43,248 nucleotides of DNA from Burkholderiales bacterium (GTDB taxonomy: Bacteria > Pseudomonadota > Gammaproteobacteria > Burkholderiales > SG8-39). Location: positions 1-43,248 of the forward strand of contig JACZJV010000045.1 in the NCBI GenBank assembly GCA_014860355.1. The letters are read 5' to 3'. The notes beneath the pieces are model-generated. The model made no database searches and was not told where the DNA came from. It saw only the letters and a list, made by a program, of their open reading frames with translations. Positions 12,408 to 36,511 of the stretch are shown here, in pieces (within the stretch, counting starts at the first letter, position 1; each line of letters opens with the position of its first letter). Position numbers and translations under genes: made by a program.

Positions 12408-12417
12408 GTATCCATGC

Positions 12418-12445: not shown

Positions 12446-12468
12446 GCCCCCCTTGGGGAAACGTAGTG

Positions 12469-12949: not shown

Positions 12950-12975
12950 GGCTTAGAGAGAATAGAGGGGGTTGA

Positions 12976-15216: not shown

Positions 15217-15257
15217 AGTTCCCCCTAAAGATTTCCCCACCAATTATCCATGACGCC

Positions 15258-15821: not shown

Positions 15822-15872
15822 TTTGTCTTCCTCCGAACTGAGTTGTCTAACGGACGGACATTCAGAGTTACA

Positions 15873-18767: not shown

Positions 18768-19292
18768 TCATCTAAAGGACTCCCGTACCACGGAGGAGGC
18801 CACGTGTGCGTCGTCCAAAATGACGGCTGACACCTTTATGGGAGCGGTCGCAGGGCCACGAACACCAAATTTGCTTCGTCCGTTAAACAACGCCTTGTAG
18901 GTGGCGATCATAATCGCCTTCCCGTTCAAGAAAGCATCATCCAATGGCTTGCCAGTCTGATATGGGACTGCCGCGATCCCAAGTGCCTTGGCTTTTACCA
19001 GTGCTTGATTCACAAGCTGGCGCGTCGGCGCAAGGTAGAGGACCGGTTCATTGGTTTCGTAAACGGTGGACTGCGCCATAATTAGTCCGACAAGCGTCTT
19101 TCCGCCACCAGTGTGCAGCTTGAGCACGACGTCGCGCTCCTTGCGACGCTGGAACCACGATTCCAGTACCTCGGCCTGGCTCGTGTATAGATCGTTGATA
19201 CCGGGTGGTTTTGGCAGCCGACGGAAGATCTCCAACGGCTCGATTGGCGTCGTCTTCTTCTTTTGGGTCCTGAGTTTGGCAAAGTCAACCAC
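18768..19292 (-). pseudogene. DEAD/DEAH-box helicase, truncated after motif II
   Basis: The 174 codons encode the first RecA-like half of a superfamily 2 helicase: HTGGGKT (Walker A), YLAPTRQLVNQ (motif Ia) and ILDDAH (motif II). The frame stops 12 residues after motif II, so motifs III-VI and the second RecA-like domain are missing and the product cannot be an active helicase. The start is the GTG at 19292, preceded by AGGAGG. The gene points away from the MADS operon. An intact relative was probably part of a different defence locus that was cut off here. Confidence 0.75.
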
Positions 19293-19370
19293 CGCGCTCC
19301 CTCCTAGGTCTGTTCGTTCGCCTAACCGCCGGAGCAAGATCACGCAGCTCACCGTGATCGTCAGCTTCTA

Positions 19371-19623: not shown

Positions 19624-19839
19624 ATGAATGACCGTTGGATGTCGGTCGACGAGATTGCCGAATACCTGGGTGTCAGCAAGGACACCGTATATACCTGGGT
19701 GAGCTCTAAGGGCATGCCCGGCCACAAGGTGGGTCGGTTTTGGAAATTCAAAAAGGATGACGTGGATGCCTGGGTACGCGCAGGCGGAGCCGCGTCTGCG
19801 TCCGACGACCTCAATGAGATGGAACAAAGGCATGGTTAA
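19624..19839 (+). CDS. mad1: MADS MAD1: helix-turn-helix (excisionase-like) protein
   Basis: A 71-residue MerR/excisionase-type HTH protein. The core WMSVDEIAEYLGVSKDTVY is followed by the wing GHKVGRFWKF and KDDVDAWVR, the standard HTH_17 layout. In the MADS locus the first gene is a protein of this type; a role as autoregulator of the operon is the natural inference. The ATG at 19624 has AGGAG 12 bases upstream. Its end overlaps the start of the methyltransferase by eight bases, which supports coupled expression. Confidence 0.85.
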   Translation: MNDRWMSVDEIAEYLGVSKDTVYTWVSSKGMPGHKVGRFWKFKKDDVDAWVRAGGAASASDDLNEMEQRHG

Positions 19840-21880
19840 GAAGAAAACACAGTCCCGTGTGCCCAAGAAAGATGACGTGACCGAAACGGAAGGTAATGCG
19901 TCTACAGACAGCACGATCGCAATCGAGGACGGCAGCATCCTTGACTACATCACGGACCGCCCTGTTCCAGAAACAGACAAAGAGCGCGTCCGTCAACGTA
20001 TTGCTCGGGCGTTATTCCACGAATATGGCGTGTCCGTGGACGACATGTTGCCCGATTTCAAGCTGCGAATTGATGGCCGGTTGAAAAAGCTGGACCTCGT
20101 CATCTTTGAACCTGGTGCACCGAAAGATGCCGAGCATGTCCGGCGCGTCGTGGTCTGCGAGAAGGAACCGACTAACAGCCGAAAGAGTGCTTACAAAATG
20201 CGGTCACCGGAAGAGGCGGAGAAAGAATTCAGCCTCTTGAAAGCGGCGATGGTGGAAGCGCCGCACTGCAAATACGGGCTTTGGACCAATGGACTGGATT
20301 TTTTCTTCTTCGAAAAAGAGGTTACCCGGTTCGATGTGAAATTTAAGTCGCTTGGTGACTGGCCACAGGCAGACGAAACCATCGGTACGCGCGATGTTGG
20401 CTCACTGGCCAAGATGCGCAGGGCTGAACCGGAGATGCTTCGTACCGCGTTTCGTCGTTGTCACAATTTCATCCACGGCAATGAGGGAATGTCCAAGGAT
20501 GCAGCCTTCTGGCAGTTTCTATACCTCATCTTCTGCAAAATGTACGACGAGCGGCAATCCAGTGATCATCGCCGGTTTTGGGCGGGTCCAACAGAGCAAT
20601 TCGAAGAGGTTGGGCGAAGAGAGATCAAGAAGCGCATTACGGCCCTCTTCGAAGATGTGAAGAAGAAGTACAAAGCCATCTTTACAGGCAAAGAAGAGAT
20701 TAGCCTCTCCGATCGCGCACTCTCTTTCATGGTGTCCGAGCTTGCGAAGTACGACTTCGGTAGGTCAGACGTCGATGCCAAAGGGGCGGCATATCAGGAG
20801 ATCGTCGGTACTAACCTGCGTGGTGATCGCGGGCAGTACTTCACTCCCCGGGGCGCCATCAAATTGATGGTGAAGATGCTCGATCCGAAGCCGGACGAGC
20901 GGGTGCTCGACCCCGCCTGCGGAACCGGGGGTTTTCTGGTTGCAACGGTCGCTCATATACTCGCCAAGTACAAGGCGGACATGCCGTCCGAAGGCGAGGA
21001 GACTGCCGACAGTCTGGTGGCGGGCAACTATGTCCGAGAGTTCGTCGAGGCGAATCTTTTTAGCGCCGATTTCGACCCAGCTCTGGTTCGCGCCACGACC
21101 ATGAACCTGATGATGGCAGCCGGATCGAAGGGCAATGTTTTCCATATGGATTCACTCACGTTTCCGGCAGGGCATCTAGACGGACTGAAAGAGGCAACAG
21201 AGAAGATTCCGCTTGGTTCCATCGACGTGTTAATGACAAATCCGCCGTTTGGATCCGACATCCCGATCACCGACCCGGCGATTCTCGGAAAGTATGAAAT
21301 CGCCCGAAAACCCCAAAAGCATGAGGGTGGAATTCCTCCAGAGGGCTATCAGTCTGCCGTAGCACCGGAGGTCCTGTTCATCCAGCGCGGCATTGAATGG
21401 CTGCGTCCTGGGGGGCGTATGGGCATCGTCCTTCCGGATGGCATTCTTGGCAACCCGGGGGATGAGTACATTCGTCGATGGATCCTGCGAAATTGTTGGG
21501 TGTTGGCAAGCATCGACCTGCCTGTAGAAACATTCATAGTCGAAGCAAACGTCAACATTCTCACAAGTCTGCTTTTCCTCAAGAAGAAGACTCGCGAGGA
21601 AATTCAAGCCGGCGATCTCGGCAGAAAGGTCGACTACCCCGTCTTCATGGCTGTCGCAGAGAAGGTGGGTTTCGACCGGCGCGGTGTGCCGCTCTACGAA
21701 CGGACTCCAGATGGAGAGGAGATTCTGAAAGAGTACACAGACACTGAGCGTATCCGCATCGGCGGAAAGTTGGTCGTTCGCACGCTTCATCGGAAGAAGA
21801 AGATCCTTGATGATGATTTGCCCAAGATTGCGGAGGCATATCGCGAGTTTCGGCAAAAACATCCGGAGCCAGGAGCATGA
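19832..21880 (+). CDS. mad2: MADS MAD2: N6-adenine DNA methyltransferase (HsdM-like) with HSDR_N-like N-terminus
   Basis: A 682-residue protein. The methyltransferase half has the SAM-binding motif DPACGTGG (360-367) and the catalytic NPPF (470-473) of type I gamma-class adenine methylases; FTPRGAIKLMV precedes them as in HsdM. The first 190 residues resemble the N-terminal domain of type I restriction subunits: KLDLVIF (Asp88), then VVVCEKEP, where the expected catalytic Glu of E-x-K appears to be Cys109, then the pattern YGLWTNG. With Mad5 supplying specificity it would methylate host DNA and mark self. The start at 19832 overlaps mad1; the stop overlaps mad3 as ATGA. Confidence 0.9.
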   Translation: MVKKKTQSRVPKKDDVTETEGNASTDSTIAIEDGSILDYITDRPVPETDKERVRQRIARALFHEYGVSVDDMLPDFKLRIDGRLKKLDLVIFEPGAPKDAEHVRRVVVCEKEPTNSRKSAYKMRSPEEAEKEFSLLKAAMVEAPHCKYGLWTNGLDFFFFEKEVTRFDVKFKSLGDWPQADETIGTRDVGSLAKMRRAEPEMLRTAFRRCHNFIHGNEGMSKDAAFWQFLYLIFCKMYDERQSSDHRRFWAGPTEQFEEVGRREIKKRITALFEDVKKKYKAIFTGKEEISLSDRALSFMVSELAKYDFGRSDVDAKGAAYQEIVGTNLRGDRGQYFTPRGAIKLMVKMLDPKPDERVLDPACGTGGFLVATVAHILAKYKADMPSEGEETADSLVAGNYVREFVEANLFSADFDPALVRATTMNLMMAAGSKGNVFHMDSLTFPAGHLDGLKEATEKIPLGSIDVLMTNPPFGSDIPITDPAILGKYEIARKPQKHEGGIPPEGYQSAVAPEVLFIQRGIEWLRPGGRMGIVLPDGILGNPGDEYIRRWILRNCWVLASIDLPVETFIVEANVNILTSLLFLKKKTREEIQAGDLGRKVDYPVFMAVAEKVGFDRRGVPLYERTPDGEEILKEYTDTERIRIGGKLVVRTLHRKKKILDDDLPKIAEAYREFRQKHPEPGA

Positions 21881-23154
21881 TCACCCGAATCGAGGCGACC
21901 CGTTATCGCTGCTTGGAGCTTCTCCAGACTGACCTTCAGGCATATGGGGTGCTGGTTGGCGCGAATGGCTCTGGCAAGTCCACTTTCATGGACATTCCCG
22001 GTCTTCTAGGGGACTGCCTTCAGCAGCAGGAGGTTGGGCAGGCTTTCACGACAAGGCTGCACGGCCGTCCGCCTCGCAGTTCAACCTTGAATGAATTGGT
22101 GTTCTGCAACCGTGGAAACGATTTTGTCCTCGCGATCGAGGCAGAGCTTCCTGAAGCAATCGTCAGCTCCTTATTGCCCTCGCAGTCCGGTCCTATTCAG
22201 AACAATGAGAATCGGTGGTTGAGGTATGTCCGATACGAAGTCAGGTTCGAGATTTTCAATGACCGACAGTTGATAATCGGAAATGAATTTCTCTTCTTGT
22301 TCGCCAAAACCAGCCAACCGAAACGTGGCAACGCTCGGCTTTACGGTGAGATTAGCCCACATCGCGACTGGCGCTTCATCATCGAGCGCCAGCGCGAAGG
22401 CGATGTCTCGTTTCGTCCCGAGGCGCAGCGGGGCAAGAAGGCACGCCCCTCGCGCGTCGATGGAAAAATGCTCGCTTTGCCTAAGATGCAATTCGAATCA
22501 TCGACGGAGTACCCGGCTGCGCGATGGTTCTATGAGCTCTTGACCAAGCAATGCGTGTTCTACCGACCGAATATCGATCTTTTGCAATCCGCGAGTCCGC
22601 CTGGTCTCTCGACCGACCTAATGGTGAACGCCGCGAATCTTCCTTGGTTAGTACTGGACCTCCAAAGCGACAAGGAGAAGTTCACGGCATGGGTTGAACA
22701 TGTCAAGACGGCCCTTCCTCAAGTAAGCGGAATTCGAGCAACGGAACGCGAAGAAGATCACCACGCATATCTCGCAGTTGCCTACAACGGCGGTTACGAA
22801 GTCACCTCATCCGGATTATCCGAGGGAACGCTGCGAGTTCTGGCTCTGACGATTCTCCCGTATTTGAACCGATGTCCTACGGTGATCATGACCGAAGAGC
22901 CGGAGACCGGTATCCATCCAAAAGCCGTCGAGACTGTCTTGCAGTCTCTGTCGTCCATTTATGGCTCTCAGGTAATTATCAGCTCTCACTCACCGGTAGT
23001 GCTCGCGGCAACCAAGCTGGATCAGATTCTGTGCGCCAGAATGGAGCCGAATGGAGCAGCCAATATCATTCCTGGTAACGAACACCCGCGGCTACTCGAG
23101 TGGCAGGGGGGGATAGATTTGGGGTCTCTATTTGCTGCAGGCATCATGGGATGA
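21877..23154 (+). CDS. mad3: MADS MAD3: AAA family ATPase (OLD/ABC-like)
   Basis: A 425-residue ABC-class ATPase of the AAA_21 type. Walker A GANGSGKS is at residues 28-35, the signature-like SGLSEGTLRVLAL and the Walker B VIMTEEPETGIHP lie near the C-terminus, followed by the switch SSHSPVVL. There is no fused TOPRIM domain, but the next gene may supply one. Related ATPases act as DNA- or phage-sensing modules in OLD, Gabija and similar systems. It overlaps mad2 and mad4 by four bases each. Confidence 0.88.
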   Translation: MITRIEATRYRCLELLQTDLQAYGVLVGANGSGKSTFMDIPGLLGDCLQQQEVGQAFTTRLHGRPPRSSTLNELVFCNRGNDFVLAIEAELPEAIVSSLLPSQSGPIQNNENRWLRYVRYEVRFEIFNDRQLIIGNEFLFLFAKTSQPKRGNARLYGEISPHRDWRFIIERQREGDVSFRPEAQRGKKARPSRVDGKMLALPKMQFESSTEYPAARWFYELLTKQCVFYRPNIDLLQSASPPGLSTDLMVNAANLPWLVLDLQSDKEKFTAWVEHVKTALPQVSGIRATEREEDHHAYLAVAYNGGYEVTSSGLSEGTLRVLALTILPYLNRCPTVIMTEEPETGIHPKAVETVLQSLSSIYGSQVIISSHSPVVLAATKLDQILCARMEPNGAANIIPGNEHPRLLEWQGGIDLGSLFAAGIMG

Positions 23155-23798
23155 GGGATCTCGTTGTATTCGTCGCCGACTCGACGATGGAAATTGTGTT
23201 TAATAGTTTCCTCAGTCGTGCGGACTACCACGAGCATTACAATCTGAATATCCGCCCCATCGCATTTAAATCATCCGAGGACCTCATCAGAGTTCCGGGA
23301 AACGACCCAGGCGTATATGGAAAAGGGCACGAGTGGGTCCGTGAACGTCTGGGCAAGCATAGGCACGCGGTTGTCGTATTCGATCGGGAGTTCGGAACAA
23401 ACCTCGACGCCGATACTCTCCGCGATGATCTAACCAACCGCATTCTTCAAACCGGTTGGGAAGCAGAACGATTCCGGGTGATTGTGATCGACCCGGAACT
23501 CGAAGCCTGGATGTGGCAGCGCAATCAGAAAGTTGCCACGCCGTTGGGGTTCGCGAGCGTTGAAGAGATGGTCAATTCAGTAATTGGTGCTGGATTGCCA
23601 TGGCCGAATGGACATGCCAAGCCTGCCCGACCGAAAGAAGCCTTGGAAGCGATCGCACGCAAGCGGCGAATTGGCTGGTCGGCGGCCATTCACCGATCGA
23701 TAACCACAAACGTTTCGCTTGTCGGTTGTCAGGATCCGACTTTTCTAGAGTTGCGCCAGGCACTTCAGTTGTGGTTCCCGCGAGGGGCACCGCAATGA
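23151..23798 (+). CDS. mad4: MADS MAD4: small protein with TOPRIM-like acidic pattern
   Basis: A 215-residue protein that starts at the ATG at 23151 inside the mad3 stop. Acidic residues fall as in TOPRIM/RloB-like or DUF4276-like proteins: Glu14 (STMEIVF), Asp78-x-Glu80 (VVVFDREFG) and the helix start PELEAWMW (Glu116, Glu118). The pairing of an ABC-type ATPase with a small TOPRIM-like partner mirrors RloA/RloB. This is inference from motifs; the published family name gives no function. Confidence 0.8.
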   Translation: MRDLVVFVADSTMEIVFNSFLSRADYHEHYNLNIRPIAFKSSEDLIRVPGNDPGVYGKGHEWVRERLGKHRHAVVVFDREFGTNLDADTLRDDLTNRILQTGWEAERFRVIVIDPELEAWMWQRNQKVATPLGFASVEEMVNSVIGAGLPWPNGHAKPARPKEALEAIARKRRIGWSAAIHRSITTNVSLVGCQDPTFLELRQALQLWFPRGAPQ

Positions 23799-25192
23799 AG
23801 ATCAAAGAGGTGCCGTTTTCATGGATTGAGCGTTGGGGTCACCGTCTAGATGTGGAGCCATTTGTGGGCGGTGCAGTTGAAACGCGCGTTCGTTTGGAGA
23901 ACGCTTCGTATCCCAAGAATCCGCTTCACAAAGTTACTGCTGGGCACAATGGCGGGATATATAACGGGCCGATGTTCCGTCGCAATTATGTCGATTCGCC
24001 AGAACATGGAGTGCCATTCCTGACCAGTGCCTCGATGCTTCGAGCGGACCTATCCAACGTCGGATTGTTACTGCGGAAGGACGCGGAAACACCAAAGCTG
24101 CGTTTCCTTCGGCTAACGCGAGGAACGACTCTAATCTCTTGCTCTGGCACGATCGGACGCACTGTCTACACCCGTCCTGACATGGAAGGAATGTGGGCCT
24201 CCCAGGACATTATGAAAGTCGTACCCAATCCAAGCGTCATTCCCTCAGGGTTTCTCTTTGCGTTCCTTTCGTGCAAGTTTGGAGTCCCGATGGTGACTAG
24301 TGGGACTTACGGCGCGATCATTCAGCATATTGAACCTGAACACATAGCTGACTTACCGGTCCCCCGTCTTGGACACAAACGTGAGGCGAAAATACACGAT
24401 CTTGTCGAAAGGGCCGCCGACGCGAGAGCTCTTGCCACTGAATTGTTCAGGCGCGCGCAACAGCAACTTGCCTCGGCATTAGGACTCTCACATCGGGGAG
24501 ATTCAAAGACAAGAGTGTGGTCCGAGACTAAGGCCAGTTGTCTATTCGATCGTCTTGACGCTTATTACTACTCAGACAAGTGCCTTAGTGCAAGACGAGC
24601 ATTCGACGTGGCGTCCGGTTGCCAATCGAGAGAGCTTCAATCGGTTGCGGATGTCTTCATCCCAGGTATTTTCAAGCGACTTTACGCGGACGATCCTCAA
24701 TTTGGCTACCCGTACATTACAGGGGTTGACGTTTTTCAGATCGTCCCGACATCGTCTCAATATCTCCAAAAGAAAGTCGCTGAGGTATATAGCCTCGTGG
24801 TGTCAAAAGGGATGATCCTTATCCAGGAGGCGGGCCAACTTGGAGGCCTCATTGGTCGTAGCGTACCGGTGGGTCGTCACCTAGATGGATTTGCAGTATC
24901 AAATAACATGATAAGGATTACCGCTCACCACGCTGAGGACATTGGTTACCTATTTGCGTTATTGTCCAGCGACTCGGGAATCACTTTGATTTCACGCGAA
25001 TCGGCAGGGTCTAGCATTCCGCACATAGATGCTAACCGGGTACGGAGGATAAGAATCCCCTGGGCCGCGAAGCCACTCAGGTTGGACTTGAACGCTCTCG
25101 TAATGCAGGCGAGGGATTTGAGAGACGACGCGTGCGAATATGAGAACGAAGCACGCCAACTTGTCGAGCGATTCATCGCGGATGCATCTTAA
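23795..25192 (+). CDS. mad5: MADS MAD5: restriction endonuclease subunit S-like specificity protein
   Basis: A 465-residue HsdS-type protein with two target-recognition domains (about 1-190 and 240-420) separated by conserved helices: the central LPVPRLGHKREAKIHDLVE followed by a long helix, and the C-terminal counterpart IRIPWAAKPLRLDLNALV followed by another. Each recognition domain would read half of a bipartite DNA site and direct the methylase Mad2. No HsdR motor subunit is encoded, so this is not a normal type I restriction system. The start at 23795 overlaps the mad4 stop; the stop shares one base with the mad6 start. Confidence 0.87.
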   Translation: MKIKEVPFSWIERWGHRLDVEPFVGGAVETRVRLENASYPKNPLHKVTAGHNGGIYNGPMFRRNYVDSPEHGVPFLTSASMLRADLSNVGLLLRKDAETPKLRFLRLTRGTTLISCSGTIGRTVYTRPDMEGMWASQDIMKVVPNPSVIPSGFLFAFLSCKFGVPMVTSGTYGAIIQHIEPEHIADLPVPRLGHKREAKIHDLVERAADARALATELFRRAQQQLASALGLSHRGDSKTRVWSETKASCLFDRLDAYYYSDKCLSARRAFDVASGCQSRELQSVADVFIPGIFKRLYADDPQFGYPYITGVDVFQIVPTSSQYLQKKVAEVYSLVVSKGMILIQEAGQLGGLIGRSVPVGRHLDGFAVSNNMIRITAHHAEDIGYLFALLSSDSGITLISRESAGSSIPHIDANRVRRIRIPWAAKPLRLDLNALVMQARDLRDDACEYENEARQLVERFIADAS

Positions 25193-28100
25193 TGGCCAAA
25201 ATCATCGCGATCGGTCAGCCCGTAAATGACGCCGAGCGTCTGGCAATCGCACACCTGCGCGATCATCTGCCAGACAGCTTTATCGTCCTCCACAATTTGG
25301 AGATTACCCGCGACGGAGACAAGTGGGAAATCGACCTTGCGGTTCTAGCGCCGCACGCGGTCTACCTGGTAGATGTAAAGGGGACACGGGGGGTAATCGA
25401 CGTCTATGGCCCTAAATGGTATCCGGAAGGCCGGACCCCTTACGCTTCACCGCTCCCCAAGCTGCGCAGCCACGCTCGCGCGCTGAAAGGAATCATCACC
25501 AGCAGTCAGCCCACCCGGCAAGACTTGCAAGGAATTTATGTCGACGCGGCAGTTGTACTGACAGCCCAAGACGCCTACTTGAGTGACCGCGACGGTCGTG
25601 ACGAAGGGAACGTCACTACTCTTAAGCATTCGGCAGCATTCTTCCAGAACACCGCTCGCATTCCCGGAAAGTATTCGAAGTCGATCGCGGTGTTGCATGC
25701 GATGGTGATCAAAGCCATTCAAGGGGTAGCCAAGCCTCGTTCAGGTCCATTGAGATTTGGCAACTGGGAGGTCCAAGAGCGTCTGGGCGGAACTGACGAC
25801 TACACCGAGTATCGGGCGTACAACACATTTGTAGGCGCACGTGCGGGAACTGCGCTGCTGCGCGTCTATCAGGCTGATCCGTATGCGCCGGCAGAAGATC
25901 GCGAGGCGCAAAGAAATCGGATCGCTACTGCATACCGCGCCTTGAGTCGACTTCCGGGGCACCCCAATATTGCTGGTGCGCGCGACTTTTTTCAAACCGA
26001 AGAGGGTGATCGTTACGTCCTCGTTACTGAGGACGTTTCCGGGCAGGCACTGCGGGTGCACCTTGAGCGCCCTGCGCTTGCGCTCACATTCGATCAGAAA
26101 TACCGCATCGCGCGAGAACTGCTCGACGCGTTGTCGCACGCCCATAGCCATGACGTGGTGCATCGCAACCTGAGCCCCGGAAGTCTACTGGTCGGATTAG
26201 ACGGCCGATTGCGCCTAATTGGATTTGATTTCGCAAGAGTCGGGATCGAGCGAAGCCATACCATCGCGCATGACATCGTCGATGAAGTCGAGCCGGCGTA
26301 TTGTGCGCCGGAAGCCTACCGCGAGCCGGGCAAAGCGAGCGCTGCCTCTGACGTGTTCAGCGCCGGGCTGATCCTTTACGAGCTTTTCGCTGGAGACAAA
26401 CCGTTTAACGGCGACCCAACTGTAGTCTTCGACCAGAACGGCGTCTTCCCGGTGAAGCCGTCGACTGCTGTGGCCGAGGCGCCAGCGGGATTCGACGAAT
26501 GGCTTCAACGGCTTTGTACTTTCGATCCTGTGGCGCGACTTACAGCGGCAGACGCTGAACGTGCTCTCGCCGCACTATTGGCGCCTCGGCATGAGCCCCG
26601 GGCGGAGGAGCTACTTGTTGCCGAGCCGGTAGCAAGCACGCCGGCGCCGGAAATCGATTACACGAATCTGGCTGCTGGCTTCGAACTGACTCACAAGTTC
26701 GTGGTGCAGAAGCGGTTGGGGCGGCCTGGCTCCTTTGGCGTTGTCTACAAAGTGATCGATACGTTAGGCGATGTGACGCGTGCCATAAAGCTTATCCTGC
26801 ACGACCGCCATTCGACCATCGAGCGATTGAAACGGGAGTACCAGCAACTCGTACGCATCCCCGAGCATCCGCATGTGGTGCGCGTACTTGATGCCGATGT
26901 GATTCCGGGCAACGGACCGCCGTTCATTCTGTTCGAATATGTTGAGGGCAGTGACGTCGGCGAAATGATCGAGCAGCACCTGCTCGCACCGGAAGACACG
27001 CTTGAGCTTGCCAAGCAGGTGACGGCCGGGCTAACGCACCTGCATCACCACGGCGTTTTCCATTTCGACATCAAACCGCGCAACCTGCTGTGGACGGACG
27101 TCGGTGCAAGGATCATCGACTTCAACGTTTCGGTCAAGGCGGGGGATCGCGAAGCGCGCGGTGGTGGCTCCCGTCGCTACCTTCCACCGGATTTCGATCC
27201 GGAGGTGATCCCGCAGAATGGAGAGCGGGCGGACCGAGACCTATATGCACTTGGATTAACTATCTATGAGGCTCTGACCGGGCGTTACCCGTGGGACGCG
27301 ACAGTTCCGCCGGTCGGGACACCTGCGCCAGATCCTCGGGAGCTTTCCGGCTTTGCCGACCTGGCGCCTGAGTTTGTCGAGATAGTCCTCAAGGCAATTG
27401 CACCAAAACGAGCGCAGCGTTATCCATCAGCTCTCGTGTTACAGGAGGCGCTTGATCAAGTGCGGGCTGCGCGCCGCCTTCTCCCGTCTGCAGTGTCACA
27501 CCCGAGCATTGTCCTTGCCGGAGCGGCGCCGAACACGAACCCCTACGTATCTCACCTGATCACGCTTTACAGTCAAAGCGGGAGAAGCAATTGCGGAACT
27601 CGCGGGCTCGATGCCCTGGGTGAGCACTCCTATGTGGACACGGCATTGGACCGCGAATTGGTACCAGCGGTCCTCGAGGGAGAGTTCCGGCTTGTTCTAA
27701 TTTCAGGGAACGCCGGAGACGGCAAGACGGCGTTCTTGCAGAAGCTTGAGCATCAAGCACAAGCATCCGGAGCAACGTTCGATCGATCCCTTCCCAACGG
27801 CTGTCAATTCTCCCTCCATGGACGCAATTACCTGCTCAACTACGACGGGAGCCAGGACGAAGGGGCGAAGAGCAACGACGAGGTTCTGCGGCAGTTCTTC
27901 GACCCGTTCTCTGGCGCATCGGAAAGGGATTGGAGTGCGCCGGAGAGTCGCCTCATAGCGATCAATGAAGGCCGGCTGGTAGACTTCTTGGCGGCGAATG
28001 CCGAACAGTTTCCCGCGTTGCGTTCTCTTGTATTGCGTGGCTTGTCTAGTGGCGAACCGGCGCACGGTGTCGCAGTGGTCAATCTGAATCTGCGCAGCGT

Positions 28101-29298
28101 TGTGGCCGACGCAAAAGATGGCTCGATTCTGGAGCGGCAGTTGCTTCGCATGACGGAGCAGCGGTTCTGGGCGCCTTGCGAAAGTTGCGACCTTAAGGCG
28201 TCTTGCTACGCGCTTCACAATGCCCGGACCTTCCAGGACGAGACTGCGGGGCCGAAAGCAATCGAGCGGTTGAAGACGCTCTATACCATGACCCACCTGC
28301 GGGGGCGTCTGCACATCACCATGCGGGACCTGCGCTCGGCACTTTCGTTCACGTTGGTTGGCAATCGAGACTGCAACGAGATTCATGCGCTCTATGCCAG
28401 CGGCAAACGGGATGAAATTGCCAAGAGCTACTACTTCAATAGCTGGATGGGTGGCGGCGTGCCAACCTCGGATCGCTTGCTGACCCTATTGGCTGACGTC
28501 GATATTGGCCTGGCGGAAGACCCGCGCTTCGACCGCGGTCTCGATTTTCTGTCGCCTGATGACCGCGGTCTATTCCGCTTCGAACAGCGCTCTGACTTCG
28601 ATCGCGAAATCATGCAGACTTTGTTTGACTTACTTCCTCGCGACTACTCCGGCACTCCTAGCCCGCAGCGCAATGGTGCGCACCGCGGCTACATCGCAAT
28701 GGCCCGGCGCCGAAACTTCTTCGAGCGAAGGGACAGTGGTTGGAGCGGGATGCTGCCCTACCGGACCGCAGATCGGCTCGTGAATATCGTGCGCAGCCGC
28801 GAGACTCCGGACGAACTCCGCAAGTCCATCTTGCACGCCATCAATCGCGGAGAGGGATTGTTGCGCCCGAGGCGTTTGGCAGGGAGCCTCGCATTGCAGG
28901 TGCGCCATGTTGATGGCGGGACGGTGCGCAGCTATCGACTGTTCCCGCTCGAGCGCTTTGCCCTAAGAGTTAAGGACGACGCCGAGCGCGCACGCTTTGT
29001 TGAGCACCTGCCCACAGGACTCGTGTTGCGATTTGACCTTGGCACTGGAAACGCCGAACCGGCCGAGCTGTTTATAAACCTGGACATGTTTGAGATGCTC
29101 GCGCGCCTGAATGAGGGCTATCGCCCCAGCGTCGAGGAGATCCAGGGATATTACCTGAGCCTGGCGGTATTCAAGAATGCCCTCAACGCGGCCCCGTACC
29201 GGGAAATTATGTTGACGACCTCTGGTCACGATTTCTACAAGTTGGCGCGCATGGCGGACGGGAAGCTGGAGATGACGCGCTTGAAGGAGGAGGTCTGA
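25192..29298 (+). CDS. mad6: MADS MAD6: NERD - pseudokinase - protein kinase - P-loop ATPase
   Basis: A 1368-residue multidomain protein. Residues about 10-110 form a NERD nuclease-related domain (WEIDLAV with Asp48, then DVKG at 61-64). Residues about 185-460 are a kinase fold with HRN instead of HRD (324-326), an arginine where the beta-3 lysine is expected, and DFA at 346-348, so probably a pseudokinase. Residues about 495-765 are a second kinase with GRPGSFGVVYK, Lys533, HFDIKPRN (catalytic Asp626) and DFN (643-645), apparently active. The C-terminal part has a Walker A GNAGDGKT (839-846) and a Cys cluster (996, 999, 1005). It is the signalling core of MADS: phosphorylation of host or partner proteins is likely, but the targets cannot be seen here. 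Confidence 0.88.
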   Translation: MAKIIAIGQPVNDAERLAIAHLRDHLPDSFIVLHNLEITRDGDKWEIDLAVLAPHAVYLVDVKGTRGVIDVYGPKWYPEGRTPYASPLPKLRSHARALKGIITSSQPTRQDLQGIYVDAAVVLTAQDAYLSDRDGRDEGNVTTLKHSAAFFQNTARIPGKYSKSIAVLHAMVIKAIQGVAKPRSGPLRFGNWEVQERLGGTDDYTEYRAYNTFVGARAGTALLRVYQADPYAPAEDREAQRNRIATAYRALSRLPGHPNIAGARDFFQTEEGDRYVLVTEDVSGQALRVHLERPALALTFDQKYRIARELLDALSHAHSHDVVHRNLSPGSLLVGLDGRLRLIGFDFARVGIERSHTIAHDIVDEVEPAYCAPEAYREPGKASAASDVFSAGLILYELFAGDKPFNGDPTVVFDQNGVFPVKPSTAVAEAPAGFDEWLQRLCTFDPVARLTAADAERALAALLAPRHEPRAEELLVAEPVASTPAPEIDYTNLAAGFELTHKFVVQKRLGRPGSFGVVYKVIDTLGDVTRAIKLILHDRHSTIERLKREYQQLVRIPEHPHVVRVLDADVIPGNGPPFILFEYVEGSDVGEMIEQHLLAPEDTLELAKQVTAGLTHLHHHGVFHFDIKPRNLLWTDVGARIIDFNVSVKAGDREARGGGSRRYLPPDFDPEVIPQNGERADRDLYALGLTIYEALTGRYPWDATVPPVGTPAPDPRELSGFADLAPEFVEIVLKAIAPKRAQRYPSALVLQEALDQVRAARRLLPSAVSHPSIVLAGAAPNTNPYVSHLITLYSQSGRSNCGTRGLDALGEHSYVDTALDRELVPAVLEGEFRLVLISGNAGDGKTAFLQKLEHQAQASGATFDRSLPNGCQFSLHGRNYLLNYDGSQDEGAKSNDEVLRQFFDPFSGASERDWSAPESRLIAINEGRLVDFLAANAEQFPALRSLVLRGLSSGEPAHGVAVVNLNLRSVVADAKDGSILERQLLRMTEQRFWAPCESCDLKASCYALHNARTFQDETAGPKAIERLKTLYTMTHLRGRLHITMRDLRSALSFTLVGNRDCNEIHALYASGKRDEIAKSYYFNSWMGGGVPTSDRLLTLLADVDIGLAEDPRFDRGLDFLSPDDRGLFRFEQRSDFDREIMQTLFDLLPRDYSGTPSPQRNGAHRGYIAMARRRNFFERRDSGWSGMLPYRTADRLVNIVRSRETPDELRKSILHAINRGEGLLRPRRLAGSLALQVRHVDGGTVRSYRLFPLERFALRVKDDAERARFVEHLPTGLVLRFDLGTGNAEPAELFINLDMFEMLARLNEGYRPSVEEIQGYYLSLAVFKNALNAAPYREIMLTTSGHDFYKLARMADGKLEMTRLKEEV

Positions 29299-30968
29299 TG
29301 CCGTTGCTCAAGCGTGACCGCGAGTTCCGTCTGTCGAAGATCAGCTACATCGACTTCAAGCATATCGAGATGGACCGGGTGCTTCTCGGGCTTTTCGAGC
29401 GAATCGCGCACGACGGCTTTCCTAGCCGATTCCGCCAGAAGCGGGAACTGACCATCAAAGACTTTGTAGACGAGATCATGGAACACCCGGAGCAGTTCAA
29501 AGGTTTCGGCGCGCACCGGGAGATCATCGAGCGATGGGTCGAGACCCATTTGATGGACATTGTGAATCGGGGCAAGCGCAACGAGGCAGTCGCCGGCCCG
29601 AGGCCTTTGCACGGATTTACTTATCGGTTTCGCAATCCCAAGCACTCTCGCGACTACGGCGCCGCACAACAAATCTATGAGGTTTTAGTGCATGCTCGCC
29701 AATCTGCAGGGCTTCACGCGATCGAGCATCTCAAGTCGTTCTTCTTTGACGGTTACGACAAAGTAACGAACAAAGTCGACCCGAACGCCGTAGTCGATAT
29801 CGAGACGGCCACGCTTCTACATTTCCTGAGCCAGCGTAAGGACGAGGCGGACCCGGGGCAGGGTGGGGAACGATTCGCCCCACTATGCGTTGGGTCGGCC
29901 GATTTGTTGGCTGAAGACGTTCAGCGGCTACTCTTCTATCGCTCATTCATTCCGCGGTCGGTGATGGTGGATTATTTGAAGCTCCTGCTCTCGTTCCACC
30001 TTGCTCTATATCACCTGCGCCTCCTCAAGCTGCTCCCTGCACTGGTGCGTCGCGAAGGCGGTGACCCGATTTGTGCCAACGGCGCGTGCCCGGTCGATCC
30101 CCGCAGAGCCGCCAATCCACAGGGCGATTGTCCTTATCGCGTGGGAATGTTGGTCGATCTCTCAGGGAATCCAGACTCGCCAGTGGCACGGCTCGCGGAG
30201 CGGAGTGCCGACACGCATTACCGACGTATTCCGGCATTCGTTAGATCGTATTTTGTCACGAAGAAACTCGACGAGTTCGCGGAAGACCAGATCAGGAAAG
30301 GAAAGCTTACCCGTCCCGCGTCCGGTCATATTTCGGTCGGCGAGGTGCTTGGACTGCAGCGCGAGGCTCTCGCCGTAGAACGGGAAAAGTTTTTCGGAGC
30401 CCGGCTGTCTAGCGTCCTCGAGGACATGGCCGGGGAGGAGAACGGGTTGGATCCCGAACTCGCGTCGCTGGCTGAGATGAATTTGGCGGAGTTTGACAAA
30501 TACATCGAGCTGCTTGTCGCTCTTCGCGGCGCATTTCATCGGCAATACATTACGGAATGCCTGGACGCGCTCATGCAGAAGAATCGGCCGGGTGCCTTGC
30601 TCTCACAGGGTCGCACCCGCAGCGCACCGCGCCGGTTTATTCTTGACAGTCGTCTCCTCGAAGTGCTGCTGCAGATTGCGGTGCTGCAGCCCGCTGGACA
30701 AGGTTTCCGCACGGGAGAAATGCGAGTTGATGAACTCCTAACGTTTCTTCGGGAGCGTTACGGCTTGCACATCGACCAGTTGCCCGAGGCCGAGGGATTT
30801 GGTCCCGCAAGCATCGAGGATAGGCAGGCACTCCGAGCCAATGTACAGGCGTTTGTATCCCGGCTGCGCGAGATCGGGTTCTACCGAGATCTTTCTGACG
30901 CCTACGTGACGCAGACCGTAACTCCGCGCTATCGAGTCGGAGTAGACGGTCAGGAAATCGGCGCATGA
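29298..30968 (+). CDS. mad7: MADS MAD7: protein of unknown function with Cys cluster
   Basis: A 556-residue, largely helical protein without a recognisable catalytic domain. Cys259, Cys264 and Cys278 (CANGACP ... DCPY) may bind a metal. The last 100 residues (MRVDELLTFLRERYG, then FVSRLREIGFYRDL) resemble a winged-helix-like segment. Its position between the kinase and the HerA-like ATPase, with a one-base overlap upstream and four bases downstream, indicates a structural or adaptor role in the same complex. Identification rests on locus position more than on sequence motifs. Confidence 0.82.
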   Translation: MPLLKRDREFRLSKISYIDFKHIEMDRVLLGLFERIAHDGFPSRFRQKRELTIKDFVDEIMEHPEQFKGFGAHREIIERWVETHLMDIVNRGKRNEAVAGPRPLHGFTYRFRNPKHSRDYGAAQQIYEVLVHARQSAGLHAIEHLKSFFFDGYDKVTNKVDPNAVVDIETATLLHFLSQRKDEADPGQGGERFAPLCVGSADLLAEDVQRLLFYRSFIPRSVMVDYLKLLLSFHLALYHLRLLKLLPALVRREGGDPICANGACPVDPRRAANPQGDCPYRVGMLVDLSGNPDSPVARLAERSADTHYRRIPAFVRSYFVTKKLDEFAEDQIRKGKLTRPASGHISVGEVLGLQREALAVEREKFFGARLSSVLEDMAGEENGLDPELASLAEMNLAEFDKYIELLVALRGAFHRQYITECLDALMQKNRPGALLSQGRTRSAPRRFILDSRLLEVLLQIAVLQPAGQGFRTGEMRVDELLTFLRERYGLHIDQLPEAEGFGPASIEDRQALRANVQAFVSRLREIGFYRDLSDAYVTQTVTPRYRVGVDGQEIGA

Positions 30969-33900
30969 GCCAAGGTCTTCACGAACTGACACGGGCCGAT
31001 CTGCTGGACGCCTTGGAAAGCGTCCTGCTGCCTTGGCTGAAGGGCCGAGTGCAGGCTCGCGAGGCAGGCCATTGCATGCGGATTACCGACCTCGACCGGG
31101 ACCTGATGGTTCGGCTCTGTGGGCGGCTGCACGCGGAGAGTCCCGGGCTAACTACGGTTGTGCTGTCCGATGGCAGCAACCGGATCCCGGCGGACATCTC
31201 CGTGTCCAGCACCAAGCTCGTCGAACTGCGCAATCCGTTGCCCGATGGCAGTCAGCGCCCGCCGCTATTGGTGTTTGTGCCGAATGATCTTCGTGCCTCT
31301 GCGGAAGACTCCTTCGGCGTTGCCACCTTCGAGGAAATCCGCGTTGCAGGCATCTACGAAACCCTGCGGGGACAGCTCGTTGACCAATTGCCCATTGCAA
31401 TACGAGGACCGCTGGGCGAGGTATTGCGAGTGGTGGCTGAGGGGGAAAAGCCATGGCCATTCGCGGACGGGCTGGCGATCGTACGCTTCCTTTTGAGTGG
31501 GAAGGTCAACGGCAACGAGCCAGAAGCAATCGGGGCCTCACTTTATGAAATCGGACTGGTTCCCGATTTTGACCTGCTGCTTCAGCCAGAGCGTGCTCCA
31601 GCGCGCGCATTCCGGAACAGGCAATGCGTAGAGCGGATCACATGGTCCTCGCGTTCGGAACGTGGTCGCGCGCTTGATCTTGGTCTGGCCAAGCCCGAAT
31701 TCCGGGAGAAGCTGGGCGATTTTCTCGCCAGCTCTGGCGTGGAAGATCCGAGGCTGTGGACGCGCGCAATCGTTTTTGATCGATCCAATTGGGCGTTGGC
31801 GTTCAATAAATGGGAGTTTGAAGATGGCGGCGCAAGTCCTGATTCCGTCTTTATCGGTGACGTTACCCTCGATCTACCAGTCGTGGAGGATTCAGAGAAG
31901 GATCCGCGTCTTGCTGAGCTGATCGGACAGCGGGTTCTGCCCATAGGTAAAGGTGGACTGCGCAAGTTTAGCGTCAGTTTTCGCGTTGATCCGCATCCGT
32001 CGCGGGTCCAGGGGTTGCGTCGTTTTGTCGCCCAGGTCGTCTCTCGTGATAACGGTCCGATTGGTCTGGTGCGCCGCAAGGCAGCTTGGACCCGACCTAC
32101 GGATGCCGCAACGGTCACCTTCTCATCGATCGGCAAGATTGAATGGGAGGAAGGCTGGCATTTCGTTCGCCTGCTCGCTGAGACGGAAGACGGCGACCTC
32201 ATACCTCTCATTGACGAAGCCGGACAGCCGGTACCCTGGAATCCGGCACCGGAAGCTGGGGTTGTTCGACCCAACGAGAGCGACCTGTTCTATGTCCTTA
32301 CTGACGAGGATGTGGAGGTTGAACCGCGCCAAAGAGCCGTCCCGCGCGAATCGAGCCTGGCACACGCACGCCTGAGAGCGCAATTCATTGCCGTGTCACA
32401 GGAGCGGGATCCGGCGGGGGTGAGTGTGTCGAGCGTGGAGTGGCTCGATCATAAAGGGCGTGGACGCGGCTTGAGCGGCGCAACCCTGGAGGTCAAGCTG
32501 GGCCGGGAGGGCGCGGTTCACGTTCCGATGTCCCCCGTGCTGCTGGATCTGGAGCGGCACATGTTGGCGGCGCCGGATAACGCCATCAGTTGGCGCATGG
32601 CTGTAACACAAGGTTCCGCTCGACCGGCCGTGGTGGATTTAGCGGGATGGCCAGAAGGCGTCGAGTCCGAGCGCTTTGTAGAGGTGCGGAGGCGCTATTT
32701 CGAAGAAATACGAACGACACCAAAAGACCTGGTAACGCAGGGCGCCGATCCATTCGTACTGAAGCCGCTGGCTCTGGAATACGCGAGTGCCTACTTGGAC
32801 ATGGTACAGGCCGTGGTAACGAGGGCCGACACGGGCGACGGCCCTGAAACTCAACGAGCATTGGTGGATCTGCGGCGCGTCCTTTCCGTCGATACAATCC
32901 GTATTGCGATAACCGATTACCGCGACCAGTATCGCGAAGCTGCGCTCGTGTCGCCGCTCCATCCGTTGAGGGCAATATGGTTCGCCACGTGGGCTGAACT
33001 AGGCCGCAAGTGGCTTGAGGCGGCGAAGAACGGTCCTCGCGAATTCATCGGACCAACGCGTGACGCGCTGCTGAAGCAGCTCGCCCCAGCCGCCTTCCCG
33101 CCAGTATTGCCCACCGAGGCGGGACATGTGCTTACGGCCGTAGACAATCTCAACCCGTTCTGGTCCCTGTATGCGCCATCGCAGGAGACGGATCCCCGTG
33201 GACTGGTCGGAGAGGTCTGTGCGGCGCTTGGCATTTCGGAACCAGCGATCGGTGGCGCTTTGATCGATGGTGTTTACTTGGCATCGAGGGCGCAACGCTA
33301 TTTGGCCCAACACCCCTATGTACGGACCTTCGTGGTCAACGCGTTCAACGCAGGCCGAGCCACCGTCCTTGCTGACATGCTGCTCGAACTGCAGCGGCGA
33401 CCTGCCTTTGCCGACTTGCGATATGACATTAGGCTTTTTGTCCCGGATCCCGATATGCCGGGCGTCGGTGAAGCATTGGTTTCGTTGCTCTCGCCGGAAT
33501 CCGGAACAACCGGGAAAGAAGCGGACGCCTTTGTCACTCCAACGGAGAGCCATATTCGGCCAAAACTTCGTTTGGCAATCCGCGCGGCCTCTGAATTCCG
33601 GGATAACCCTGATCAACATGCAGCGCACATTTCGATGCTGTTCGACGTTTTTCCTGCGGAAGAGATACAGGTGATGCGAGCATCACCGCGAACTGAAACA
33701 TCGGCAGTGCACGGGTTGGTTCAGCGATTTGCGGTGGATTATGTTGAGGACGAGAACACCGTCGCGTGGCGTCGACACCCGCTTCACGGACCCGTGAGAC
33801 CACTTGAGGGCGAAGAGGAACTCACGGATCTACTGTCTGGACTGGCTCGGACGATCTCTACGGCAACGGCTGCGGTGGCTACCGGTCAAGTAGGCGTTAA

Positions 33901-36511
33901 TCTCCGCCCTGTTGTTACTCTGGTCTTGAACAGCGATGAGCGTGCCCTTCTTCATCAAGTGCACGAGGTGAGCGATTGGGTTGTCACCCTCGACCGAAAT
34001 ATGGGGATAGAGTTTTTTGATCATCGACATCACCCATCGCGGCCGGATTACCTTATTGATCATTCACCGGACATGGCCAACGCACTAGGCCATCGGTTGG
34101 TCATCACCTCACGCTCGGTCGCTGAATTGGAAGCGCTACTTAAGCCAGTCTTGGCTGATTACGGGATTCGGGTCGCAGGTGCGCATGCGCTTGTAATTCT
34201 GGAGCAACTTCGATCGCTGTCTGGACGACTCGCCCTTAAGCTTATTTCTGCACCGAATCAGCGCGCCGAGGCTCTTGGGCTGGCGCTATCGCGCCTCTAC
34301 TTGGAACACCAAGGCGTGTTCGAGAACCAGATTGTGGTGCCGCTCGATGCCCATATTGATCTCTATCGAGCGTTGAAACAGCAAGCCGACGAATTGGGCG
34401 ATGAAGTATCGTTCCGACGTACTGATCTCGCGTTGTTCGACCTGGATGCCACCCGACGACTGATCACCTGCCGTCTTGTAGAGGTCAAGTGCTACGCACA
34501 GGTAGGGGGGCTTGCGGGCTACAACCAGCTGAAACAGGCGGTGGCGGCACAAATCGCCCAAAGCGAACAGGTTATCGCGTGGCACTTCGATCCGAATCGC
34601 ACGCAGATAGACCGAGCGGACCGCGCCATGAAGGTACGAGACCTAGCGGCGCTCTTGGAGTTTTATCTTGATCGGTCGCGTCGCTACGGCGTTATCGCCT
34701 CCGACGCAGCGGACGAGGCCCGCTATCTGCTCAATACGCTCGAGGCTGGCTATCAACTCCGTTTCACAAAAAGCGCACTGATATTTGACTTTGAGAAATC
34801 GGGGACCGAGCCGGCCGAATGGGAATTTGGGATCGAGTTCCACCGAGTTGGCTCGGACCTGATCCAACAACTGATAGACGCAGCAGCACCGGACACCGAA
34901 AGCGTAAGTTCTGAGACGAGCGAAGGTGGAGAAGGCACCGCTGCTGCGCAAGCGACGGCAGAACTTCGTCGAAGAAGGGAACGAGCATTTTCGATTCCCA
35001 CACTAAAGACTGCGGAGTTTCTCGGGCCGCAACGGGAACGAACTGTTCCGTTGGAAGACGTGGACGCTAACGAGGTGACAGGTGGACAAACTGCACTGGA
35101 TTACGATCAATCGCGTGGAACTGCAGAATCAAAGGCAAAGGACAGCGCGCCGCCAGTAGCGCCACTTGTCGCCCCAATCGCTCCAATTGAGCCAACCTCG
35201 CCCGCCGAAGCGAACATAAGTCCAGAAGCCTCTTCAAAGACGGCAACTTCGGAAAGGCCAAGCCAAGTGGTGCCCCTCACTCCGCCGCAAGCGACCGCGT
35301 TGAGCGATGGCCCGCAATTCGACGTCATCCTCGGCGTAGGCGGAGAATCGCCGCAGTATGGGCTTCTGGGCGATGTCGCTGGTCGAAAGGTGGCATTGGA
35401 TCTCAACCAAACGCATACGATCAGCCTGTTCGGCGTTCAGGGTGGCGGCAAGAGCTACACGCTGGGAGCCATCGCGGAAATGGCTTCGCTAAGAATACCC
35501 GGGATCAATCTATTGCCGCGCCCTCTTGCCACCGTCATCTTTCATTACAGCCAGACAATGGACTATCGACCGGAGTTCACGTCGATGGTATCGCCCAACT
35601 CGATTGAGCAGCAAGTCCGGCAGTTGCGCGAAAGCTATGGGGCGGAACCGCACGGTTTGTCAGACGTGGTGCTTCTGGCCCCGGCGGACAAGGTGAACGC
35701 GCGGAAAGCTGAGTATCCGGACATCGAGGTGCTCCCTTTAAAATTCGCCGCGGCCGAACTTCAGTCTAGCCACTGGCGATTCCTCATGGGTGCCGTAGGC
35801 AATCAGGCTACATATATCCGTCAGCTAAATCGACTAATGAAGGCGCTGCGGAGCGAGATGACAATCGACGCTCTTCGCCAAGGTATCGATCATTCTTCCT
35901 TGCCCGATCATCTTAAAGACTTGGCACGCATGCGGCTGGATCTGGCTAGCGAATACATCGACGACACAGCGCAGCTCTCATCCGTAATTCGCCCAGGCCG
36001 ACTAATCATTGTCGATCTACGCGACGAATTCATCGAGAAAGATGAGGCTCTTGGTCTGTTTGTGGTGCTCTTGCAGCTTTTCGCCGATGCGAAATTTGAA
36101 GGCCAAAGCTTTAACAAACTGGTCGTGTTCGACGAGGCACATAAGTATATCGAGAGCCCGGACCTGGTCGCGGGTTTGGTGGAAGTAGTCCGCGAAATGC
36201 GACATAAAGGTACGAGCATATTAGTGGCGAGTCAGGATCCGCCGTCGGTTCCAGTCTCGCTGATTGAGCTGTCCACCCAGATCGTGCTCCATAAATTCAA
36301 TTCGCCTGCATGGCTCAAGCATCTCCAGAAGGCCAACGCCGCCCTGGCTTCACTGTCAGCGGAGCGAATGGCAAACCTTGGTCCGGGCGAGGCGTTCGTT
36401 TGGTCGAGCAAGGCATCGGATGAAGCGTTTGTCAAAGGTGGTATTAAGATTCGATGCCGTCCCCGGGTGACGCAGCATGGCGGGGGCACAAAGACTGCAG
36501 TAGATGACTGA
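30965..36511 (+). CDS. mad8: MADS MAD8: giant HerA/FtsK-like ATPase with internal PD-(D/E)xK motif
   Basis: A 1848-residue protein. The C-terminal 370 residues form a HerA/VirB4-like motor: Walker A GVQGGGKS (1490-1497) and Walker B VVFDEAH (Asp1723, Glu1724), followed by ASQDPPSVP. Around residues 1150-1190 there is a nuclease-like pattern: TDLALFD (Asp1154) then LVEVKCY (Glu1173-x-Lys1175) and a Gln-rich helix. Residues about 1290-1450 are a low-complexity, Pro/Ala/Glu-rich linker. The first 1100 residues are unrecognised. The layout resembles DptH of phosphorothioation-dependent restriction. It is the best candidate for the DNA-processing effector of MADS. Confidence 0.87.
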   Translation: MSQGLHELTRADLLDALESVLLPWLKGRVQAREAGHCMRITDLDRDLMVRLCGRLHAESPGLTTVVLSDGSNRIPADISVSSTKLVELRNPLPDGSQRPPLLVFVPNDLRASAEDSFGVATFEEIRVAGIYETLRGQLVDQLPIAIRGPLGEVLRVVAEGEKPWPFADGLAIVRFLLSGKVNGNEPEAIGASLYEIGLVPDFDLLLQPERAPARAFRNRQCVERITWSSRSERGRALDLGLAKPEFREKLGDFLASSGVEDPRLWTRAIVFDRSNWALAFNKWEFEDGGASPDSVFIGDVTLDLPVVEDSEKDPRLAELIGQRVLPIGKGGLRKFSVSFRVDPHPSRVQGLRRFVAQVVSRDNGPIGLVRRKAAWTRPTDAATVTFSSIGKIEWEEGWHFVRLLAETEDGDLIPLIDEAGQPVPWNPAPEAGVVRPNESDLFYVLTDEDVEVEPRQRAVPRESSLAHARLRAQFIAVSQERDPAGVSVSSVEWLDHKGRGRGLSGATLEVKLGREGAVHVPMSPVLLDLERHMLAAPDNAISWRMAVTQGSARPAVVDLAGWPEGVESERFVEVRRRYFEEIRTTPKDLVTQGADPFVLKPLALEYASAYLDMVQAVVTRADTGDGPETQRALVDLRRVLSVDTIRIAITDYRDQYREAALVSPLHPLRAIWFATWAELGRKWLEAAKNGPREFIGPTRDALLKQLAPAAFPPVLPTEAGHVLTAVDNLNPFWSLYAPSQETDPRGLVGEVCAALGISEPAIGGALIDGVYLASRAQRYLAQHPYVRTFVVNAFNAGRATVLADMLLELQRRPAFADLRYDIRLFVPDPDMPGVGEALVSLLSPESGTTGKEADAFVTPTESHIRPKLRLAIRAASEFRDNPDQHAAHISMLFDVFPAEEIQVMRASPRTETSAVHGLVQRFAVDYVEDENTVAWRRHPLHGPVRPLEGEEELTDLLSGLARTISTATAAVATGQVGVNLRPVVTLVLNSDERALLHQVHEVSDWVVTLDRNMGIEFFDHRHHPSRPDYLIDHSPDMANALGHRLVITSRSVAELEALLKPVLADYGIRVAGAHALVILEQLRSLSGRLALKLISAPNQRAEALGLALSRLYLEHQGVFENQIVVPLDAHIDLYRALKQQADELGDEVSFRRTDLALFDLDATRRLITCRLVEVKCYAQVGGLAGYNQLKQAVAAQIAQSEQVIAWHFDPNRTQIDRADRAMKVRDLAALLEFYLDRSRRYGVIASDAADEARYLLNTLEAGYQLRFTKSALIFDFEKSGTEPAEWEFGIEFHRVGSDLIQQLIDAAAPDTESVSSETSEGGEGTAAAQATAELRRRRERAFSIPTLKTAEFLGPQRERTVPLEDVDANEVTGGQTALDYDQSRGTAESKAKDSAPPVAPLVAPIAPIEPTSPAEANISPEASSKTATSERPSQVVPLTPPQATALSDGPQFDVILGVGGESPQYGLLGDVAGRKVALDLNQTHTISLFGVQGGGKSYTLGAIAEMASLRIPGINLLPRPLATVIFHYSQTMDYRPEFTSMVSPNSIEQQVRQLRESYGAEPHGLSDVVLLAPADKVNARKAEYPDIEVLPLKFAAAELQSSHWRFLMGAVGNQATYIRQLNRLMKALRSEMTIDALRQGIDHSSLPDHLKDLARMRLDLASEYIDDTAQLSSVIRPGRLIIVDLRDEFIEKDEALGLFVVLLQLFADAKFEGQSFNKLVVFDEAHKYIESPDLVAGLVEVVREMRHKGTSILVASQDPPSVPVSLIELSTQIVLHKFNSPAWLKHLQKANAALASLSAERMANLGPGEAFVWSSKASDEAFVKGGIKIRCRPRVTQHGGGTKTAVDD

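Follow-up and report, generated by a model that had tools for sequence, protein, structure and literature searches.

The stretch of DNA considered here (the window: 43,248 nucleotides of contig JACZJV010000045.1, assembly GCA_014860355.1, from a Burkholderiales bacterium) carries an eight-gene operon, mad1 to mad8, that on sequence grounds is an intact methylation-associated defense system (MADS), an anti-phage system, and this identification is secure. The original prediction had matched the genes one for one, and in this order, to the MAD1-MAD8 families, which is borne out by two model collections. All eight proteins exceed the cut-offs of the NCBIfam equivalogs (bits/cut-off: MAD1 97.1/80, MAD2 992.2/720, MAD3 521.5/420, MAD4 214.9/160, MAD5 494/400, MAD6 792.4/460, MAD7 677.4/410, MAD8 220.7/175) and all eight match the PADLOC models (E values: mad1 4e-16, mad2 2e-104, mad3 3e-42, mad4 1e-11, mad5 4e-33, mad6 3e-148, mad7 1e-181, mad8 5e-44). 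On Mad2, the generic PADLOC model MTase_II scores higher (846 bits) than PADLOC mad2 (348 bits). The genes lie on one strand, and the starts of mad2 and mad5 are better placed downstream of the longest-frame starts, at 19832 and 23795; with these starts all seven junctions overlap (ATGGTTAA, ATGA, ATGA, ATGA, TAATG, TGATG, and ATGA from mad1 to mad8).

All eight frames are open, as had been claimed, but for the two giants model coverage falls short of full length. The NCBIfam MAD6 and MAD8 models span only 612 and 200 positions and cover residues 1-622 of 1368 in Mad6 and 35-241 of 1848 in Mad8, while the PADLOC models cover residues 141-798 and 1471-1846, respectively. Both sizes nevertheless appear normal because homologous open reading frames (ORFs) in other loci are similarly long: measured stop to stop, the best Mad6 ORF reaches 1372 amino acids or more everywhere but in locus L074 (645), which makes 42 of 43 loci. 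For Mad8 the best ORF reaches 1805 amino acids or more in 40 of 42 loci, the exceptions being L067, where it is split, and L074, where it runs off the end of the stretch. Peptides of the window's Mad7 served to find most of the loci used for comparison (42), so proportions among them are not population frequencies.

Table 1. Features of the mad operon and its surroundings (positions in the window; aa, amino acids).
Feature	Positions	Strand	Description and evidence
tRNA-Asp	9818-9894		adjoins integrase
Tyrosine integrase	9992-11284		adjoins tRNA-Asp
Truncated DEAD-box helicase	18768-19352	-	first 171 of 831 positions of PDC-S28; upstream of operon
mad1	19624-19839	+	71-aa excisionase-type helix-turn-helix protein; NCBIfam MAD1; HTH_17 1e-18
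mad2	19832-21880	+	N6-adenine methylase, HSDR_N-like N-terminus; NCBIfam MAD2; N6_Mtase, HSDR_N_2
Exchangeable slot mad2-mad5, here mad3-mad4	21877-23798	+	slot comparison across loci
mad3	21877-23154	+	ABC-type ATPase (AAA_21/AAA_15); NCBIfam MAD3; AAA_21 1e-22
mad4	23151-23798	+	215 aa
mad5	23795-25192	+	HsdS-type specificity subunit; NCBIfam MAD5; Methylase_S
mad6	25192-29298	+	NERD, pseudokinase, Ser/Thr kinase, SspF-like P-loop ATPase; NCBIfam MAD6, Pfam, motifs, hhalign
Mad6 NERD nuclease-like domain	25225-25563	+	PF08378 1e-15
Mad6 first kinase-like domain (pseudokinase)	25894-26595	+	PADLOC kinase models, about aa 235-468; HRD changed to HRN
Mad6 second kinase	26701-27471	+	PF00069 1e-55; catalytic residues intact
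Mad6 C-terminal F part (SspF-like)	27559-29295	+	PADLOC SspF 7.6e-26, aa 835-1087; hhalign 98.7%
mad7	29298-30968	+	G subunit (SspG/DndG-like)
mad8	30965-36511	+	H subunit (SspH-like), putative nuclease and HerA/FtsK-type ATPase; NCBIfam MAD8, hhalign
Mad8 putative PD-(D/E)xK site	34412-34543	+	RTDLALFDLD...LVEVKCY; motif rows, SspH alignment
Mad8 HerA/FtsK-like ATPase region	35420-36364	+	conserved Walker A and B; profile matches to HerA-type chains (best E 6e-4)

The modification half of the operon is, to judge from its domains and motifs, a type-I-like pair of a methylase (Mad2, with the motifs DPACGTG and NPPF intact) and a specificity subunit (Mad5). Methylase and specificity subunits are present, and no HsdR was found among the proteins scanned, in which the sole HSDR_N-like stretch lies inside Mad2. 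Mad2/Mad5-like methylase-specificity pairs also occur on a Skermanella plasmid (L083:4767-8224) and a Tessaracoccus plasmid (L085:8863-12290), neither with mad6-8 neighbors within the stretch shown and the latter near an ArdA antirestriction gene. These plasmid pairs possibly serve as self-marking against MADS-like systems.

The other half is formed by the C-terminal part of Mad6, Mad7, and Mad8, which by profile comparison constitute an F-G-H module homologous to SspFGH and stand in the SspFGH order (hhalign of Mad8 against SspH, 97.7%). This suggests that the attack half of MADS is related to the Ssp/Dnd machinery of phosphorothioate restriction. Mad7 is predicted to adopt a DndG-like fold. 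In front of its F part, Mad6 carries two kinase-like domains, of which the first has HRN in 40 of 44 aligned rows (HRD in 4 of 44) and the second retains HxD[IV]KPxN in all 44. A kinase-less F-G-M-S-H locus (L074:7901-19001) has a stand-alone F gene without the NERD domain, its mad8 being cut by the end of the stretch, and could be an intermediate between Ssp-type and MADS-type systems. In two of three Bacteroidota plasmid loci, a PP2C phosphatase gene lies directly 3' of mad8 (L080:21127-21792 and L084:21022-21690).

Several results weigh against such a placement. The similarity to SspG resides mainly in the C-terminal half of Mad7, and the C-terminal ATPase of Mad8, when compared alone with SspH, yields 7.7% (both hhalign). 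A Foldseek search with the Mad7 model gave no match at E ≤0.001, the likeness to DndG coming from a second-look aligner only, and a sequence search of the PDB with Mad7 and with the G protein of L071 gave no match. With DndFGH the similarity in sequence is weak (hhalign F 27%, G 0.2%, H 40.5%, and 4.4% for one cross pairing, the profile holding just two Dnd loci), so that hhalign does not identify the module as DndFGH by sequence, although the Mad7 model resembles DndG. SspFGH itself is described as having no sequence homology to DndFGH (PMC8092258).

Where the nuclease resides can be read in more than one way. The NERD domain of Mad6, whose residues E..D..DxK are intact, or Mad4 might be the real nuclease and Mad8 merely a translocase. 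This is unlikely, as 32 of 43 loci lack Mad4 and L074 lacks the NERD domain, while all of 42 rows keep the D, D, E, and K of the putative Mad8 site, whose ExK aligns with that of SspH.

A slightly more doubtful proposal is that the operon works like bacteriophage exclusion (BREX) or Pgl systems, a PglW-like kinase phosphorylating partners and phage replication being blocked without DNA cleavage, with the F-G-H likeness reflecting shared module ancestry. PglW has the same layout of NERD plus kinase as the N-terminal half of Mad6, and residues 14-759 of Mad6 match PADLOC PglW (5e-62) and residues 15-700 match NCBIfam PglW (1e-57), although at 196 bits the latter is far below the NCBI cut-off of 990. 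The match ends at the kinase, however, and the remainder of Mad6 matches SspF; moreover, the F-G-H match pairs each gene with its own counterpart in collinear order, and the kinase is missing from L074. No PglZ or BrxC model and no other BREX gene was among the matches listed for the operon proteins (PADLOC, Pfam, and NCBIfam).

MADS shares a homologous and collinear restriction module with SspBCD-SspFGH, to which its G and H similarity is distant, but uses a type-I-like N6-methyladenine (m6A) methylase pair for modification and has kinases fused to F. No SspBCD genes appeared among the matches of the operon and neighboring proteins scanned (part of the window's ORFs), and no Dnd modification genes among the neighbors scanned. 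The large proteins were also tested for a better Dnd/Dpt or BREX match, and their best PADLOC matches proved to be mad6, mad7, and mad8. By every testable feature the locus is MADS and, because their modification or marker genes are absent among the matches, not an Ssp, Dnd, or BREX system.

The genes mad3 and mad4 lie in a slot between mad2 and mad5 whose content varies. Among 57 loci compared, mad2, mad5, and the intervening content are visible in 43; the slot is obscured by a contig end, by decay, or by divergence in eight loci with Mad7 relatives (L011, L016, L017, L025, L035, L039, L045, and L075), and six Ssp/Dnd-type references stand outside the slot count (L066, L070, L071, L076, L077, and L078; in L066, L071, L077, and L078 some F/G/H proteins were assigned by position, others by PADLOC scan). 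The slot holds mad3-mad4 in 11 loci (L013 and L015 included), both genes together, a second methylase in 21, a Schlafen gene in one (L041), and a Fic gene in one (L046); it is empty in eight and rearranged in one (L074). This suggests that mad3 and mad4 sit in an exchangeable slot and are not a constant part of MADS, so the window operon is complete, as had been predicted, only under the eight-gene definition. Guests can also be stacked: in L015 (191-4361) an intact Schlafen gene precedes mad3-mad4, giving two guest cassettes in one slot. That this gene is a dead remnant was ruled out by tblastn with the L041 Schlafen protein (665 residues, 83%, one frame, within an open frame of 748 codons). 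The cores of L015 and L041 are sisters and their Schlafen proteins are 83% identical, with mad3-mad4 in L015 only. Scanning the gaps again under a wider ORF filter changed no slot state besides that of the L015 Schlafen. An extra HsdS-like gene, perhaps a spare specificity gene, lies between mad4 and mad5 in L013 (2574-4088).

The second methylase differs from Mad2 in a uniform manner. Among 62 methylase ORFs of at least 400 amino acids, 41 have NPPF, 20 have NPWF, and one fragment (L045) has neither, and all 20 NPWF proteins are located in the mad2-mad5 slot. Their motif I reads DCSS, DCSC, or DCAS-GTG; YPTP takes the place of YFTP in 20 of 21 rows. Slot copies share on average 82% identity among themselves and 37% with Mad2. 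Because these changes are so uniform, they point less to decay than to a conserved partner that is non-catalytic or altered. Two slot methylases tested score 816 and 813 bits on NCBIfam MAD2 (cut-off 720). In L037 the second methylase is in broken frames, and in L019 and L044 an M78-like gene (60% mutual protein identity; Pfam M78 match only below the cut-off) flanks the second methylase on opposite sides.

On a tree of Mad7 and Mad8 (a quick search, with long-branch warnings), the slot states call for 10 changes, where shuffled states average 19.5, and are thus partly inherited but often changing. A single clade was rejected for each main state, A, B, and empty (approximately unbiased (AU) test, p 2e-6, 1e-61, and 5e-10; 38 of 43 rows; devised after the first tree had been seen). 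In the window, mad3-mad4 cluster with their counterparts in L033 and L038, though the cores lie in another clade (100/99 support); the test of this cassette/core conflict reached only p 0.025 (AU). Between L049 (a Piscinibacter plasmid) and L067, Mad2, Mad6, Mad7, and the larger Mad8 piece are 96.6-97.8% identical, but Mad3, Mad4, and Mad5 share 56, 37, and 51%, respectively. Their DNA is about 93% identical up to 161 bases inside mad3 and again from the first bases of mad6, and the block between is 68-73% identical or unalignable. Most simply, to go by this alignment, the mad3-4-5 block was replaced as a unit.

Least probable of the three alternatives is that Mad3-Mad4 are obligatory for restriction and that loci without them are decayed or separate "MADS-like" systems: MADS was reportedly named by Maestri et al. 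in 2024 (Cell Host Microbe) as eight genes, mad1-mad8, NCBIfam names MAD3 and MAD4, the two genes stay together in 11 of 43 loci, and in the window they overlap translationally with mad2 and mad5, but the empty-slot loci L010 and L043 (the latter a complete Sorangium chromosome) keep MAD2, MAD5, and MAD7 over the cut-offs, other empty slots are found on the plasmid records L079 and L080, and none of the three states forms one clade in the post hoc test. The slot is also empty in L084, which has mad2 in two frames and is outside the tree.

Mad3-Mad4 have the layout of the phage anti-restriction-induced system (PARIS) and other ABC ATPase-Toprim systems, among which MADS has already been placed (excerpts of PMC12409363). 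Mad3 matches the PADLOC models AriA (3.8e-23) and HEC-01A (4.8e-31), while for Mad4 no AriB model was among the PADLOC matches listed. Mad4 may have a Toprim-like fold; a Foldseek search with it gave no significant match, Pfam DUF4276 reached only E 0.23, and a profile search of the PDB returned sphingosine kinases (E 0.17). Campylobacter type I restriction-modification loci likewise contain an overlapping guest pair, rloA-rloB, inside the modification operon, there listed between hsdR and hsdS (PMC2928727), a resemblance of layout. Neither Mad3 nor Mad4 was found in the viral contigs searched, nor Mad7 in the phage records searched. A Mad3-like ATPase gene outside MADS lies beside other methylase genes on a Geoalkalibacter plasmid (L082:7001-8224).

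With regard to its surroundings, the operon looks like part of a tRNA-Asp-associated defense island. The left flank reads tig-clpP-clpX-lon-hup, tRNA-Val, tRNA-Asp, and tyrosine integrase, followed by a low-GC stretch upstream of the operon (about 0.46-0.50, positions 12001 to 18000). The predicted island is half supported, by the integrase beside tRNA-Asp, whereas its right boundary was not found: the 31-base 3' end of tRNA-Asp occurs once in the 202-contig genome at ≤3 mismatches. Downstream of mad8 lies an Mrr-type nuclease gene (PDC-S02), and positions 41336-42007 (+) match the C-terminal domain of Shedu SduA weakly, below the Pfam cut-off. Compared with MADS of Maestri et al. 2024, the window has the same eight genes, order, and curated models in a divergent copy with its own neighbors: Mad7 scores 603 bits on PADLOC mad7, against 905 in another genome of the same order. 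The closest relative found is a Burkholderiales metagenome-assembled genome (L006; Mad7 86%). In a comparison of the individual proteins, it shares 79-84% identity in Mad1, Mad2, Mad6, Mad7, and Mad8 but only 38% in Mad5. In a tally of the order, 5 of 300 matched PADLOC mad7, of which four are MADS (the window's own genome included) and one a false case (DndG); a search of the phylum brought matches to NCBIfam MAD7 in 8 of 398, four over the cut-off. PADLOC mad7 was rejected as a MADS counter, the DndG of L070 (7529-15466, beside DndF and DndH) scoring 241 bits on mad7 and 547 on DndG.

Taken together, the locus is quite probably best explained as a complete MADS with an m6A self mark set by Mad2-Mad5, kinase-gated restriction by F-G-H, and mad3-mad4 as an exchangeable accessory. 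Mad2-Mad5 would put m6A on a bipartite motif, thereby marking self. SspFGH and DndFGH are described as damaging DNA without the self mark and as toxic when the mark is absent, the literature featuring a 2:2:1 translocating nickase and a phage kinase that inactivates DndFGH (excerpts of PMC8092258, PMC11662687, and PMC10470545). Because Mad6F-Mad7-Mad8 are homologous to SspFGH, they can be expected to act on DNA without the m6A mark: the complex would load on DNA, translocate via the Mad8 motor, and damage unmarked DNA with the PD-(D/E)xK site of Mad8, perhaps also with NERD. The Mad6 kinase would set the activity of its own FGH, most likely restraining it until infection; with the kinase fused to F, the operon would carry within itself a form of the control imposed on Dnd by the phage kinase. 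Mad1 may tune transcription, and Mad3-Mad4 (an ABC ATPase and possibly a Toprim-like protein) would act as an exchangeable accessory effector and not as a fixed part of restriction.

This mechanism has to contend with several points. Methylation of the same motif gave DNA no protection from DndFGH (excerpts of PMC10470545), so reading m6A would be a new ability of FGH. No single deletion of dndF, dndG, or dndH abolished restriction, from which a review infers independent action (PMC12707154, in part), whereas each ssp gene is needed for restriction (PMC8092258). The direction of kinase control is drawn by analogy, and BLAST of the Bacteroides PP2C against the ORFs of the 57 loci returned its self-match only.

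The broader reading, for which the odds appear evenly balanced, is that MADS is a member of the FGH superfamily that reads m6A instead of phosphorothioate, with a kinase switch fused to F. The mad2-mad5 gap would be a hotspot in which guard effectors replace one another and are at times stacked (ATPase-Mad4, Schlafen, Fic, an M78-like protein, or a conserved NPWF pseudo-methylase). They may watch the Mad2-Mad5 complex and fire once it is blocked by an anti-restriction protein of a phage, and the slot could be exchanged along with the specificity gene. The interest lies more in this reading of the family than in the window locus itself, and neither the FGH link nor the slot is claimed as unpublished. 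For annotation, the operon is modular, with eight genes as one of its states: 32 of the 43 resolved loci would be overlooked by a rule that insists on mad3 and mad4, and two slot methylases tested carry the NCBI MAD2 label. How MADS restricts phage DNA is listed as unknown in a 2026 review (excerpts of PMC12904381). The placement of Mad6C-Mad7-Mad8 in the SspFGH family would provide a concrete, testable mechanism, in which damage to unmarked DNA is coupled to translocation and a kinase within the system acts as the gate, and predicts that loss of mad2 or mad5 would be toxic.

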